Assembly: GCF_027944115.1 (NCBI RefSeq)
Contig: NZ_JAPJZI010000001.1
Span: forward strand, 124,001-188,000
Length of the DNA: 64,000 nucleotides
DNA from: Hoeflea prorocentri
GTDB taxonomy: Bacteria > Pseudomonadota > Alphaproteobacteria > Rhizobiales > Rhizobiaceae
Direction of reading: 5' to 3'
In this document: positions 3,277-7,994 of the stretch, in pieces
Position numbering within the stretch: position 1 is the first letter of the stretch
How the letters are laid out: the number at the start of each line of letters is the position of its first letter
The notes under the pieces: generated by a model
The model's input: only the letters and a program-made list of their open reading frames with translations
Databases searched by the model: none
What the model was told of the DNA's origin: nothing
Made by a program: the position numbers and the translations under genes

Positions 3277-3732
3277 TTACACCGGATCGACGCGCAGCTC
3301 CCGTCCGGTGCTTTCGACCACTTTCACGCGTGTACCGACGGGAAGGTCCGGTCCGCTGACGACCCAGGTGGTGTCATCAATGCGAATGCGGCCGCGACCC
3401 TCGTTGATCGGCTCGGATAATGTAGCGGTCCTGCCGACCAGGCTTTCACCCCTTTTGTTGAGCAGGGGCTCGTCGCTCTCGTCACTGCGTTTCATCATGC
3501 GGCGTCCGACGACTGCCGCCGCCACGGCCAGGATGGCGAACACAAGTATCTGCAGCTGCCAGGCCCAGAAAGGCTCCGACCAGAATACCAGAGAAATGGC
3601 GCCGACAATGATTGCGGCAATGCCGATCCAGATCAGGAATACGCCCGGCATCAGGATCTCGGCGGCGAGCAGAACCAGCCCCAGGACCATCCAGCTCCAG
3701 GGACCGAGTTCCTGTATGATGCGCTCTATCAT
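3277..3732 (-). CDS. NfeD family membrane protein
   Basis: A 151-residue protein with three hydrophobic segments in the first 75 residues (around [19 protein letters not shown] and [15 protein letters not shown]) and a soluble C-terminal half of about 70 residues that fits the OB-fold NfeD domain. It is the short form without the ClpP-like protease part. Its start overlaps the stop of the SPFH gene by four bases (ATGA), so the two are translationally coupled. NfeD proteins are regular partners of stomatin/QmcA-type SPFH proteins and are thought to help build membrane microdomain assemblies; that role here is inferred from the pairing. Confidence 0.85.
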
Positions 3733-4724
3733 GCGTCGTTGTCCCTATGTCCGGCGGTCGGCACCGAGCCGCTACGCCCGGAGGACGAAGACGACGGCGT
3801 GCCGCCGTCACTGAAGACTTCCTTGGCAATGGCGCCGATGCCGCCCAGCGACCCGATGAGCGATGAGGCCTCCATGGGCATCAGAACAATCTTCTGGTTC
3901 CTTGCCGTGCCGATGGATGCCAGCGCTTCGGTGTATTTCTGGGCGACGAAGTAGTTGATGGCCTGGACATCGCCGGCGGCAATGGCTTCGGAGACGACCT
4001 TGGTGGCCTTGGCTTCGGCTTCGGCCAGCCTCTCGCGTGCTTCAGCGTCGCGGAATGCCGCTTCCCTGGTGCCTTCGGCTTCCAGGATCGCTGCCTGTTT
4101 CGCGCCTTCGGCGCGTAGGATTTGGGCATTACGCGAGCCCTCCGCCTCAAGCACTTCAGCGCGTTTTTCACGTTCGGCCTTCATCTGACGGGCCATGGAA
4201 TCGACAAGGTCGTTCGGCGGATTGATATCCTTGATCTCCACGCGGGTGATCTTGATGCCCCAGGGACTCGCCGCTTCGTCGACAACCTTGAGCAGCCGGT
4301 CGTTGATGGCGTCACGGTTGGACAGCAGCTCATCAAGGTCCATGGATCCCATGACGGAACGGATGTTTGTCATGGTCAGGTTGAGCAGCGCAACTTCAAG
4401 CTGGTTCACCTGATAGGCTGCCTGCGGGGCGCTCAGCACCTGGTAAAAGGCCACGGCATCGGCGGCGACGCTTGCATTGTCCTTGGTGATCACTTCCTGG
4501 GTGGGTACGTCCAGGACCTGTTCCATCATGTTCATGCGGGCGCCGATCCGGTCGATGAACGGGACGATCAGGTTCAGCCCCGGCTCAAGGGTGCGCGTGT
4601 AGCGTCCGAACCGTTCGACCGTGTAGTTGAACCCCTGCGGAATCGTCTTGATACCGGCAAACAGGACGAAGATGACAAGGACAACAAACACAATGACTGC
4701 AATGTCGAGTCCGGCCAAGGGCAT
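3729..4724 (-). CDS. SPFH/band 7 (stomatin/QmcA-like) membrane protein
   Basis: A 331-residue protein with one N-terminal membrane helix (residues 9-24, [14 protein letters not shown]), an SPFH domain starting at [22 protein letters not shown], and a long Ala/Glu-rich coiled coil at about 180-250 with repeats of the type AEGxxxAxxLxAEG. This order is that of QmcA/stomatin proteins, which oligomerise at the inner membrane and modulate proteases or channels. The Ser-rich tail near residue 310 is probably flexible. It is first in a two-gene operon with nfeD. It is distinct from the second SPFH protein at 6807, which has a different N-terminal architecture. Confidence 0.9.
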
Positions 4725-4911: not shown

Positions 4912-5970
4912 TCAGATCCAGCCCTGAAGCTCGCGCCGCACCACGGTTTCGATCACCTGCATGCCGGCTTCGCCGTCATTAAGGCAAGGGATGTGGGTGA
5001 ACTTTTCCCCGCCATGTTCATGGAATATTTCGCCGGCCTCGCCGGCAATCTCTTCCAGGGTTTCCAGACAGTCCGAGACAAAGCCCGGATTGATCACGGC
5101 GATGCGTTTAACGCCTTCCTTGGCGAGTTTCTCGATCGTTTCATCCGTATAGGGCTGCAGCCATTCTTCCGGTCCGAAGCGTGACTGGAACGTGGTTATC
5201 AGCTTGTCCTTGTCCCAGCCGAGTTTCTCGCGCACAAGGCGCATCGTCTTCATGCAATGGCAGTGATAGGGATCGCCCTTGTCAAAGTAAGACTGCGGAA
5301 TGCCGTGGAACGAGGCAATAACCTTCTGCGGCTCCCAGTCGAGTGTCGACAGGTGTTCGGTAATGGAGTTGGCAATGGCCGATACATAGGCCGGGTCGTC
5401 ATGATAGGGCGGCACGGTGCGCAGTGCAGGTTGCCAGCGCATGTTCTGAAGCGTCTCGAAGGCCTTGTCGTTAACGGTGGCGGTCGTGCTTGCCGCATAT
5501 TGCGGATAGAGCGGGAAGATCAGTACGCGCTCGCAGCCCGAATCCTTAAGTGCCGTGAGCCGGTCTTTGATCGAAGGCTGGCCGTAGCGCATTGCCCAGT
5601 CGACCTGAACATTGGGGTGGCTCTGAAGGCTGCTTGCAAGGGCGACGGACTGGTTACGCGTGTAAGTCCGCAGATAGCTTTCATCGCGCTCCTTGTTCCA
5701 GATCGATTCATAGGCCTTGCCGACCCGGCCGGGCCGGGTATTGAGCACGATCCCGAACAGGATTGGATACCAAAGCACGCGCGGCCATTCGATGACCCGT
5801 TTGTCGGTCAGGAACTCGCGCAGATAGCGGCGCATGGAGGTGTAGTCGGTTCCGTCCGGCGTGCCGAGATTGACGATAAGCACGCCGACCTTGCCGAAGG
5901 CAACGGAAGGATGCCCATCCGGCAGCGGTGCGGCGGTGGATTCGATCTTGTTCTTGTCGGCGTGTTTCAT
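4912..5970 (-). CDS. hemH: Ferrochelatase
   Basis: Inserts ferrous iron into protoporphyrin IX, the last step of haem synthesis; peripheral to the inner membrane. The protein is 352 residues. The family signature SFHGIPQSYFDKGDPY lies near residue 215, with the metal-binding His, and VGVLIVNLGTPDG opens the first Rossmann-like lobe near residue 28. FPLYPQYAASTT and the C-terminal NPGFVSDCLETLEEI are also typical. It stands alone between the SPFH gene and the tRNA-like region. I did not find a convincing Irr or Fur site in the 270 bases upstream. Confidence 0.95.
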   Translation of the reverse strand: MKHADKNKIESTAAPLPDGHPSVAFGKVGVLIVNLGTPDGTDYTSMRRYLREFLTDKRVIEWPRVLWYPILFGIVLNTRPGRVGKAYESIWNKERDESYLRTYTRNQSVALASSLQSHPNVQVDWAMRYGQPSIKDRLTALKDSGCERVLIFPLYPQYAASTTATVNDKAFETLQNMRWQPALRTVPPYHDDPAYVSAIANSITEHLSTLDWEPQKVIASFHGIPQSYFDKGDPYHCHCMKTMRLVREKLGWDKDKLITTFQSRFGPEEWLQPYTDETIEKLAKEGVKRIAVINPGFVSDCLETLEEIAGEAGEIFHEHGGEKFTHIPCLNDGEAGMQVIETVVRRELQGWI

Positions 5971-6240
5971 GGAGCTCCCCGGTCTGTTCTCCGGAACATA
6001 TGCGCCGCGCCATCTTTTTCAAGCAGGCAGATATATGTTGCGAACGAGCAACAGTCCTTCGCCGAGAAAGCGAAAATCGAAAAACACTCATCGTACCGCT
6101 TGCAATCTGCAGGCGGCCTCAATAGAAGCCGCAACCCCGGCGTTAAACCGACGCGAGTGCTGGCGGCCCGAGTTCTGGATACTCGGCCGGCACGGTTTGC
6201 TCTGCATTGACCGTGTGCATGTACCGTAGAGGCCGTTGGG

Positions 6241-6312
6241 ACGCTTGTAGCTCAGTGGTAGAGCATCGGTCTCAAAAACCGAATGGCACGGGTTCAAATC
6301 CCGTCTAGCGCC
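6241..6312 (+). tRNA. tRNA-like gene, type I cloverleaf with anticodon CAA (not a normal tRNA-Leu)
   Basis: The D arm (GCTC/GAGC), anticodon arm (TCGGT/ACCGA, loop CTCAAAA at 6271-6277), 5-base variable loop and T arm (ACGGG/CCCGT, loop TTCAAAT) are all intact. The acceptor stem is poor: A-C at position 1:72 and T-T at 6:67. Anticodon CAA would read UUG (Leu), but bacterial tRNA-Leu has a long variable arm and this does not. The arms resemble tRNA-Trp with CCA changed to CAA. Pairing can extend past the acceptor stem: TTGG (6236-6239) pairs with CCAA (6311-6314) across a two-base bulge. That suits a tRNA-like module inside a longer RNA better than a translating tRNA. It may also be a decayed tRNA. 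Confidence 0.5.
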
Positions 6313-6385
6313 AATCTATAGCTCAATTGGTAGAGCACCAGACCGCGACTCTGGGGGTTGGGGGTTCGAATCCCTCTTGCCTGCA
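6312..6385 (+). ncRNA. Second, degenerate tRNA-like module
   Basis: It starts inside the 3' end of the first module. The D arm (GCTC/GAGC, 6321-6336), anticodon arm (CCAGA/TCTGG) and T arm (GGGGG/CCCTC, loop TTCGAAT) are conserved and the body resembles tRNA-Trp. The anticodon loop is CCGCGAC, with C instead of the near-universal T at position 33, and the acceptor (CAATCTA against TTGCCTG) pairs at only four of seven positions. A functional aminoacyl tRNA is unlikely. It could be a structural tRNA mimic or a pseudogene. The bases after it, GTCGAAGG at 6387, fit the pattern I recall for the Ro-binding element of bacterial Y RNAs, though eight bases can match by chance. Confidence 0.4.
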
Positions 6386-6806
6386 TGTCGAAGGGTATTT
6401 CGGAGCCGGCCGCGTAACCGGTTGAACCTGCTGCAACGACAATGTCGGTGCAGCGGCGCAGGCGGATGCGTCCTTGTGGCGGTCTGCGCCAGGTGATGAT
6501 GAAGGTGGGCCAGAGTCAGACGCACGGGGCGGCGTGCTGTCCCGCTCGGACTCCCCGACATCCGCTCTCCTGCGCACGCCGGCCAGAACGGCAGGTCGGC
6601 TTCGGAGCCCACATAAACCCCGACGCACAAGGTGTGGACGGACAAGATTTAAGAATCGGTCAAGGCCGCGTGCCCCGCAACCACCCCGGGGGAAACACAT
6701 AGGCCTTGTCTGCTGTAAACAGGGTGGACACCGGCCCCAATGGGGCAAAACGAAAGGAACGTTACAGCGCATGACATAGCGATGTTGACGACAAAAGGTG
6801 AATCTC
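6386..6806. other. Gene-free stretch between the tRNA-like modules and the slipin gene
   Basis: About 420 bases with no convincing reading frame. There is a local hairpin CTGCA...TGCAG enclosing CGAC/GTCG near 6431-6457 and GC-rich segments that could fold. The slipin ribosome binding site (AGGTGA, 6796-6801) is at the right end. The region could be the 3' part of a structured RNA or a long leader. No sigma-54 or clear sigma-70 promoter was found in it. Confidence 0.5.
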
Positions 6807-7949
6807 ATGATGAAGACAATTGGAAGGATGATCGGCTTCGATCGTGTCCTGATTAGAGAAAATGAGCGCGCCGTCGCGCTTCATAAAGGACGTTTCATGG
6901 GAATACTGGTTCCGGGTGAATACTGGCTGCGCAATGCGCGTGGTACGCTTCAGATTGAGGTGCATGACCTCAACGATCCGGAATTTGTTTCGTCGTTTGA
7001 CGATGCGTTGTTTCGGGTCATGCCTGACGTTGCCAGCGAGCATCTGACAGAAATCCGTACGGGCTCGATGGAGGTCGCAGTTATCCTCAGGGATGGTCGC
7101 TTCTTCAGTGTGCTCCCGCCGGACGGAAGAACTGTGGTCTGGACGCAGACCGGTCCTTGGAGCGTTGAGCGTTTCGACGTTTCGGAAACGATCGAGGTTC
7201 CCAGGGATGCGGCAAAAATGCTGCGTCGGGCAACGAAACACGCACGTGTTGTGCAGGCTGAGATTACACAGAATCAAACCGGTCTGCTCTACGTCGATGG
7301 TGAGTTTGTCCGCACCTATGGTCCCGGCGCCCATCTGTTCTGGGACGTTGGCCGCAAGGTGGACATGAGGCTTATCGACACACGTTGGCAGTCGGTTGAC
7401 GTTAGCGGTCAGGAGGTCCTGACCAAGGATCGTGTAACGATCCGCCTGAATGTCGCTGCTGACTACCGGGTCGTTGATCCGGTCAAGGCCGTTGCGTCGG
7501 TCCAGGACTTCTACGAGACCCTTTACAGGGCGCTGCAGTATGCGTTCCGGAAGGCCCTTGGCGCCAAGACGCTCGACCAGATCCTTGAAAACAAGGTGAC
7601 TGTCGATGATGAGGTGGCGAACAAGGTCAAGTCGCATATGGCCGAGATCGGCGTCCAGGTTGGCGAAATCGCTCTGAAGGACGTAATCCTGCCGGGCGAG
7701 ATGAGGGAAATCCTCAATCAGGTGGTCGCCGCGACCAAGGAAGCGGAGGCCAATGTTATCCGTCGGCGTGAGGAAACGAACGCTACGCGGTCACTGCTTA
7801 ACACTGCCAAGGTTATGGCGGAGAACCCGGTTATGCTCAGGCTTAAGGAACTTGAAGCCCTTGAGCAGATTGCCGGAAAGGTTGAGCGCCTGACTGTCCA
7901 CAGCGGGACAAACGGTCTGATGAATGACCTTGTCAGTCTGCGTGACTGA
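6807..7949 (+). CDS. Slipin family SPFH/band 7 protein
   Basis: A 380-residue protein with no obvious membrane helix at its N-terminus. It carries an N-terminal extension of about 150 residues that itself looks like a degenerate band-7 unit (RENERAVALHKGRFMGILVPGEYWL), followed by a full SPFH domain from about residue 160 (ITQNQTGLLYVDGEFVRTYGPGAH) and a C-terminal helix with EANVIRRREETNATRSLL. The ATG at 6807 follows AGGTGA at a good distance; the GTG at 6798 is less likely. Slipins of this long form are, as I recall, companions of RtcB/Ro-type RNA-repair operons in other proteobacteria. Neither rtcB, rtcA, rtcR nor a TROVE gene is in the window, so the role is open. Confidence 0.8.
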   Translation: MMKTIGRMIGFDRVLIRENERAVALHKGRFMGILVPGEYWLRNARGTLQIEVHDLNDPEFVSSFDDALFRVMPDVASEHLTEIRTGSMEVAVILRDGRFFSVLPPDGRTVVWTQTGPWSVERFDVSETIEVPRDAAKMLRRATKHARVVQAEITQNQTGLLYVDGEFVRTYGPGAHLFWDVGRKVDMRLIDTRWQSVDVSGQEVLTKDRVTIRLNVAADYRVVDPVKAVASVQDFYETLYRALQYAFRKALGAKTLDQILENKVTVDDEVANKVKSHMAEIGVQVGEIALKDVILPGEMREILNQVVAATKEAEANVIRRREETNATRSLLNTAKVMAENPVMLRLKELEALEQIAGKVERLTVHSGTNGLMNDLVSLRD

Positions 7950-7959
7950 TTAAAAACTG

Positions 7960-7994
7960 ACGCCGCTCCCATTCGGGGGCGGCGTTTCTTTTTT
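7960..7994 (+). terminator. Strong terminator after the slipin gene, usable on both strands
   Basis: An 11-bp stem (ACGCCGCTCCC/GGGGGCGGCGT with one T-G pair) and loop ATTC, followed by TTTCTTTTTT. On the other strand the same stem is followed, three bases on, by TTTTT, so it can also end the convergent 5'-nucleotidase transcript. Confidence 0.85.

Follow-up and report, generated by a model that had tools for sequence, protein, structure and literature searches.

The analysed window, a stretch of 64,000 nucleotides (nt) from the alphaproteobacterium Hoeflea prorocentri (assembly GCF_027944115.1, contig NZ_JAPJZI010000001.1, positions 124,001 to 188,000 of the forward strand), contains two tandem tRNA-like modules upstream of a gene encoding a predicted soluble SPFH protein. 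These modules are part of a conserved structured RNA region that is most likely the leader of this gene. Comparison with related genomes indicated that the tRNA-like frames are maintained by compensating base changes, and that the anticodon loops they carry differ from genome to genome. Positions are those of the window, and the features described lie on the + strand unless stated otherwise.

Two tRNA-like modules in the probable leader of an SPFH gene

Two tandem cloverleaf cores were identified by ARAGORN at 6240-6313 (anticodon CAA) and 6312-6384 (GCG), and the Rfam tRNA model scored them at 68 and 50.6 bits, respectively, with a cut-off of 29. Module 1 (6241-6314) has an acceptor (6241-6247/6305-6311) in which five of seven pairs are formed and a 3′ end that reads CAA rather than CCA. 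Module 2 (6312-6384) forms four of seven acceptor pairs, and a complete acceptor of seven base pairs (bp) with a CCA end is found in neither module. The loop of module 1 (CUCAAAA, 6271-6277) has 7 nt and U33; that of module 2 (CCGCGAC, 6343-6349) lacks U33. A first-pass annotation of this DNA had described the tandem cores with faulty acceptors, the missing T33 of module 2, the overlap of the modules at 6312-6314 and an outward pairing of TTGG (6236-6239) with CCAA (6311-6314), and all of these were recovered, as was the sequence GTCGAAGG at 6387, which it had likened to a Ro-binding pattern. In relatives, the outward stem was sought in a related register (complement of nt 74-76 at most 9 nt upstream of module 1) and was present in 13 of 31 leaders, compared with a mean of 6.5 and a maximum of 12 in 1000 shuffles; nine of the 13 leaders with this putative UGG/CCA clamp are from Mesorhizobium, and the pairing of the window itself lies outside the tested register. 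Descent of the module bodies from tRNA-Trp, also suggested at first, was rejected, tRNA-Trp being outside the four closest of 38 ordinary host tRNAs for either module. Among the named relatives, the nearest (L072:3416-3488) carries the loop CCGCGAC of window module 2 in its module 1, as if the modules had swapped loops. Besides the two modules, the Rfam hits comprise 40 further tRNA genes in the host genome; tRNA-Ile(GAT) and tRNA-Ala(TGC) are not among the 42 hits and may be carried by rRNA operons missing from the search output.

The association of the modules with the SPFH gene was established in its relatives. In a scan of named genomes that retained the 80 best of 172 relatives (57-76% identity to the gene), ARAGORN called at least one tRNA-like core approximately 0.3-0.6 kilobases (kb) upstream of the gene in 78, with an anticodon that varies from genome to genome. 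The two exceptions were L113, whose contig ends early, and L149, in which direct parsing shows two modules. Nonredundant sets of loci were used for the leader alignment (34), the loop and hairpin counts (30), the counts of a two-codon open reading frame (ORF) described below (19) and the acceptor counts (15). In the alignment of 34 alphaproteobacterial module pairs, 22 of 40 base pairs showed two-sided changes and 96.2% of cells were paired, and none of 500 shuffles, which ignore relatedness, was as high on any of five measures; slid partners gave at most 49.0% paired. The first-pass annotation had proposed covarying stems in relatives as a check of its reading, and the RNA passes this check; the covariation is strong, though it is no probability, as the shuffles do not keep relatedness. 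Because of the conservation in relatives and the covariation, a chance origin of the cores was excluded. In the same alignment the acceptor of module 1 is retained at 7 bp (91.9% paired) and that of module 2 has only three solid pairs, and the D and T arms are much more conserved than the anticodon loops. A structured element at the 5′ side of the modules (6130-6229) was predicted by RNAalifold from the 34 leaders; 12 of its 20 pairs have two-sided changes and 95.1% of cells are paired, the structure being predicted from this same alignment.

In 44 sources, a covariance model, R1, separated many of the tandems from single tRNAs: L157, which was held out of the model, scored 149.8 bits, and single ordinary tRNAs scored at most 63. 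On whole genomes the model is unspecific, 388 of 398 passing 1e-14 with matches taken to be mostly ordinary adjacent tRNA genes, and therefore no claim is made that the RNA occurs solely with the SPFH gene. Nine SPFH loci scored no better than single tRNAs (L075, 63.7; L143, 61.1; L160, 59.3; L173, 57.5; L132, 55.9; L137, 54.5; L045, 50.7; L174, 38.7; L166, 30.3), and no match was obtained at L046, L113, L156, L175 and L176, the sequences of L113 and L156 being incomplete. By eye, an extra T-arm-like unit without a clear D arm follows the tRNA-like core in L075, L116, L132, L137, L147 and L150. In E. coli (L175) and Citrobacter (L176), where the SPFH gene is paired with a nucleotidyltransferase gene, only a single T-arm-like hairpin could be recognised, at 189 and 188 nt before the SPFH gene.

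Changing anticodon loops, free hairpins and an alanine identity pair

Loops were counted in the 92 of 106 loci with two T arms 60-82 nt apart, the 14 others being left out. They mostly retain U33 and a purine at position 37. Among 42 unique loops with U33, 21 match real tRNA loops, a number equalled in 0 of 5000 column permutations and in 2 of 5000 when only nt 37-38 were permuted; the reference set of real loops included one added Ile loop. The contrast between frame and loop is sharpest in the Mesorhizobium group, where the anticodon and T stems of module 2 are invariant in 46 loci and its loop occurs in 16 versions. A quick tree of the SPFH gene requires at least 23 changes of this loop. 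Six of the 52 loci of the group were left out of the loop and tree counts by the T-arm criterion, and one of the 46 kept is recorded just as 'Bacterium'.

Mimics of anticodon stem-loops also occur outside the cloverleaves. In the 85-nt region behind the T arm, a hairpin whose loop equals a real host tRNA loop at nt 33-38 is present in 13 of the 30 nonredundant loci; shuffling gave a mean of 0.42 (maximum 4 in 200), and control blocks further downstream gave 0 of 86. The number rose to 19 of 30 loci, against 1.43 expected by shuffling, when a less strict consensus of the anticodon loop was applied. Because the hypothesis had arisen from loci already viewed, a second count was made on a later panel of 14 nonredundant loci, themselves partly viewed beforehand, and a matching hairpin was present in six, compared with 0.17 by shuffling (maximum 3 of 300). 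A second free hairpin occurs in 39 of the 46 Mesorhizobium-group loci, with at least 19 loop changes on the SPFH tree. At the corresponding site of the window (6385-6461) no free hairpin was recognised.

Module 1 departs from ordinary tRNAs in another way. Its loop has 7 nt in just 11 of 79 parsed loci and another length in 68, many of them near relatives, and 29 loci share one 6-nt loop. Among 70 alphaproteobacterial copies with at least five acceptor pairs, 61 encode CCA and 49 have G:U at position 3:70 (10 of 15 nonredundant). Alanyl-tRNA synthetase recognises its tRNA chiefly by the G3:U70 pair, and a tRNA-Ala is the only one of the 40 ordinary host tRNAs to carry it. Comparison shows that most alphaproteobacterial relatives have in module 1 a tRNA mimic that combines an unusual anticodon loop with the alanine identity pair and an encoded CCA. 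In many relatives the RNA resembles the tRNA-like domain of transfer-messenger RNA (tmRNA), having an alanine identity pair on a mostly non-decoding tRNA-like body. It differs from tmRNA in that no tag ORF was recognised and the RNA is embedded upstream of an mRNA, and the window copy has G:C at 3:70 and so lacks the tmRNA-type pair.

Possible transcript signals and a conserved two-codon ORF

The conserved region begins with a promoter-like stretch (CTTGCAA ... ATAGAA, 6099-6127), recognised by eye; TTG- and TATA-like stretches were seen, also by eye, in nearly all of the 34 aligned leaders, and the scan for consensus promoters did not report the stretch. A terminator-like hairpin lies 3′ of the SPFH gene (7959-7986), and the terminator scan listed no + strand site between module 2 and the gene. 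We infer a transcription start near 6135 and a single transcript from about 6135 to about 7990.

Between the modules and the SPFH gene, a Shine-Dalgarno-like AAAGGA (6753-6758) precedes a minigene, the two-codon ORF AUG ACA UAG (6771-6779). A best-stem search placed this ORF within a possible small hairpin, ACAGCGC-[AUGACAUA]-GCGAUGU (6764-6785). The Shine-Dalgarno sequence with a two-codon ORF is present in 75 of 84 alphaproteobacterial leaders and in 12 of 19 nonredundant ones, compared with a mean of 0.48 by shuffling (maximum 3 of 200) and 1 of 95 control blocks; L127, whose stated match begins within the gene, was not counted. The second codon changes, the start is AUG or GUG and the stop UGA or UAG. 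In place of the two-codon ORF, three leaders (L132, L137 and L143) have UUG and then three CGA codons before the stop, and a further leader reads AUG UGA. Some form of the hairpin was found in 24 of 25 chosen leaders, a count that has no null and with which single-sequence folds often disagree. A two-codon ORF upstream of the regulated gene is also described for axe-txe (PMC8708949). The ORF of the window type differs in that it follows an array of tRNA mimics and is conserved in many genera of a single class, and its effect on expression is putative.

A predicted soluble SPFH protein

The gene downstream (6807-7949) encodes 380 amino acids with a Band_7 domain (Pfam, E 1e-29), which was found in 20 of 20 family members. 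Relatives are annotated as slipin, the name that the first-pass annotation had also used. The SPFH domain agrees with this label; the N-terminal membrane segment of a membrane slipin is not predicted: the maximal 19-residue hydropathy is 0.99, without any strongly hydrophobic segment, and ranges from 0.99 to 1.71 in 20 members and from 0.93 to 1.78 in 14 further ones. Two soluble subfamilies are noted in a prokaryotic SPFH survey of 2009 (PMC2636767).

A structure model (mean predicted local distance difference test score, pLDDT, 81.8) shows three tandem five-stranded beta units, the third entering the SPFH domain, followed by the rest of this domain and a long helix. Profile comparison related units 1 and 3 (probability 91.8, E 7e-7) more closely than the other two pairs (probabilities 52 and 47). 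In structural alignments, the rows for stomatin, HflK/C, prohibitin, erlin and flotillin begin at residue 124 or later. Ten vault chains were among the 50 matches listed, of which six align from residue 12-14, as no other listed row does, and four from 142-149; the vault match 9z4w_1 reached Z 11.5 over 229 aligned residues, with a root-mean-square deviation of 5.3. The model may share with the major vault protein tandem beta units, an SPFH-like shoulder and a long helix; it has three units and the vault protein nine (PMC13347060). Among 12 Pfam families at E ≤10 for the 20 members, no vault-repeat or shoulder family appeared. The proposed vault link is weak, because the N-terminal part alone is less close to vault repeats (Z 3.4-3.7) than to unit 1 of the SPFH domain in membrane SPFH proteins (Z at most 5.8), all of these values being low.

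RtcB-linked relatives and rejected identities

A panel of 398 genomes of the phylum contained 23 with the SPFH family at E ≤1e-60. The 14 of these that lie outside the alphaproteobacteria all encode RtcB within ~4 kb of the SPFH gene; upstream of the SPFH gene, a tRNA-like gene was called by ARAGORN in 10 of the 14, and 13 have a pair of T arms at a suitable distance. Inside the class, 8 of 9 panel genomes had no RtcB match, and the remaining one a distant hit on another contig. Together with the cores upstream of the gene in named relatives, the nearby RtcB genes support the first-pass proposal of a tRNA-mimic RNA tied to the slipin gene. The rtcB, rtcR and TROVE genes for which it had proposed a search of the genome did not appear: no match was found in the host genome to RtcB (PF01139; the profile was positive in 9 of 14 control genomes), RtcR (PF06956; positive in 1 of 14, E. 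coli) or TROVE (PF05731; positive in 1 of 14). Its further suggestion of a Y RNA-like RNA likewise found no support, the YrlA model (RF02553) scoring 21.7 bits with a cut-off of 69 and none of 14 related loci exceeding the gathering threshold. YrlA is a tRNA-like RNA of RNA-repair loci (PMC8394870), a point of likeness; the locus RNA has two cloverleaves and YrlA is a stem with one tRNA-like domain.

In a Citrobacter record the SPFH gene is accompanied by rtcR and by a gene for a nucleotidyltransferase; a homologue of this nucleotidyltransferase was not found in the host genome by a search run without a positive control. Burroughs and Aravind, in Nucleic Acids Research (NAR) in 2016, reportedly proposed a novel tRNA-like molecule as partner of SPFH modules in RtcB RNA-repair loci. 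The present system resembles theirs in the SPFH gene with an adjoining tRNA-like RNA and, outside the alphaproteobacteria, in the RtcB gene within ~4 kb. It differs in that the host genome has no RtcB or RtcR match and the RNA is resolved as a tandem, with further traits in the free anticodon hairpins of many relatives, the changing loops, the alanine pair and the minigene. The window locus thus has the SPFH gene with an RNA upstream that marks this RtcB-linked class and lacks RtcB in the locus and RtcR. An SPFH gene is also part of the P. aeruginosa rtc locus (PMC13086221). In the open literature, judged mostly at listing level, no paper was found that describes, for this locus, the minigene, the anticodon mimics or a module with G3:U70.

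Possible function of the leader RNA

Since the loops vary on fixed frames and mostly obey the rules of real anticodon loops, they look like possible bait for enzymes that recognise such loops. Two facts point in the same direction, namely that other lineages have RtcB nearby and that an rtc operon responds to cleaved tRNA (PMC7790460). Tentatively, and with less than even confidence, we regard the RNA as a bait or sensor for tRNA-attacking enzymes that is coupled to the SPFH protein. Toxins, phage- or host-encoded anticodon nucleases and other enzymes with a cutting or binding action on anticodon loops would meet shifting loops on a non-decoding RNA. Their binding or cleavage would either spare the real tRNAs or alter the leader, upon which the SPFH protein, likely a ring- or cage-former, would be made, the two-codon ORF coupling the change in the leader to its translation. 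The damage would be resealed by the ligase in relatives with a linked RtcB, and in the lineage without RtcB the bait and the SPFH protein alone would remain. The RNA may, as the first-pass annotation had it, be a decoy or sensor of damaged tRNA, a reading that the changing mimic loops make more plausible. In its fullest form, the proposal is a hypervariable library of anticodon mimics, an mRNA leader with interchangeable loops on fixed tRNA-like frames in an arms race with anticodon-cutting enzymes, whose soluble stacked-beta SPFH partner may build a small vault-like RNA cage; as a whole this is doubtful. If the RNA is indeed bait, the loops of a single RNA would be a fast-changing record of the tRNAs under attack, in a ligase-free form, and an unexplained gene association would be turned into testable questions on what cleaves or binds the loops, on possible alanine charging of module 1 and on the way in which the soluble stacked-beta SPFH protein handles RNA.

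Several observations weigh against a bait. The hairpin hypothesis arose from the inspection of loci, ahead of the counts. Outside the alphaproteobacteria a matching hairpin was found in 2 of 10 nonredundant loci, both of one family, the other four of the six positives of the later panel being alphaproteobacterial. U33 is lost in 17 of 81 seven-nt module 2 loops. The window copy itself is without G3:U70, encoded CCA, U33 in module 2 and free hairpins; it is partly degenerate, and the RNA may be decaying in this lineage. In addition, a Salmonella study did not detect YrlA fragments. No flanking ORF within ~4 kb (overlapping ORFs excluded) is common to more than 7 of 31 alphaproteobacterial loci, and therefore no nuclease is linked to the locus.

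The alternative that survives best, though somewhat doubtful in our view, is a scaffold RNA whose tRNA-like bodies would be handles for an SPFH ring, in the manner of the Y RNA-Ro and vault RNA-vault pairs, and whose loops would be unread by nucleases and unconstrained. The far better conservation of the D and T arms than of the loops fits this idea, as do the presence of the cores with the same SPFH family, the formation of rings by SPFH proteins as a family (PMC12624060) and the three beta units of the model, the last of which enters the SPFH domain. Against it, U33 and a purine at 37 are retained in most loops, the loops match real tRNA loops more often than permutation allows, and the free anticodon-type hairpins recur outside the modules that would be the handles.

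It is unlikely that the RNA is a cis-regulatory leader, in which processing of module 1 (by RNase P, RNase E or at CCA) or its charging with alanine, together with the two-codon ORF, would set SPFH translation by the state of the translation machinery, with the anticodon loops incidental. This explanation would leave the diversity of the loops and the free hairpins unaccounted for, and leaders outside the alphaproteobacteria show the array without an evident minigene (by eye, uncounted). Nevertheless, the terminator scan of the window, the conserved minigene and the frequent G3:U70 and encoded CCA are all consistent with regulation in cis. In the axe-txe operon, expression of txe is increased in cis by an ORF of two codons (PMC8708949). 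In Anabaena, rtcB, a tRNA operon and a slipin gene, alike to the present one by name, are controlled by a repressor, TrcR, whose effect is lifted by translation inhibitors (PMC10272220).

A relic, the remains of a tRNA cluster drifting into decay, is quite improbable. The window copy, degenerate in both acceptors and in the module 2 loop, has this appearance, as have the many module 1 loops of other than 7 nt, including those of near relatives, but the two-sided compensation contradicts a relic for the family, and neither the presence of the RNA across classes nor the invariant module 2 stems of the Mesorhizobium group would fit decay. That the modules are ordinary charged tRNA-Leu(CAA) and tRNA-Arg(GCG) genes, as the ARAGORN and Rfam calls would have it, is hardly credible given the broken acceptors, the anticodons that are not kept between relatives (16 module 2 loop versions in the Mesorhizobium group), and the genome's own long-arm tRNA-Leu(CAA) at C2:305575 and tRNA-Arg(ACG), (CCG), (CCT) and (TCT).

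Neighbouring genes

PADLOC gave 0 matches to known defence families for the SPFH protein and for a second SPFH protein encoded nearby, and a search for phage carriers gave a single weak partial match. The second SPFH gene (3729-4724, within 3277-4724, - strand) lies beyond hemH (4912-5970). Its product has a strongly hydrophobic N-terminus, with a maximal 19-residue hydropathy of 3.12, and the gene is followed by a short one that we take, from its size and place, to be NfeD.
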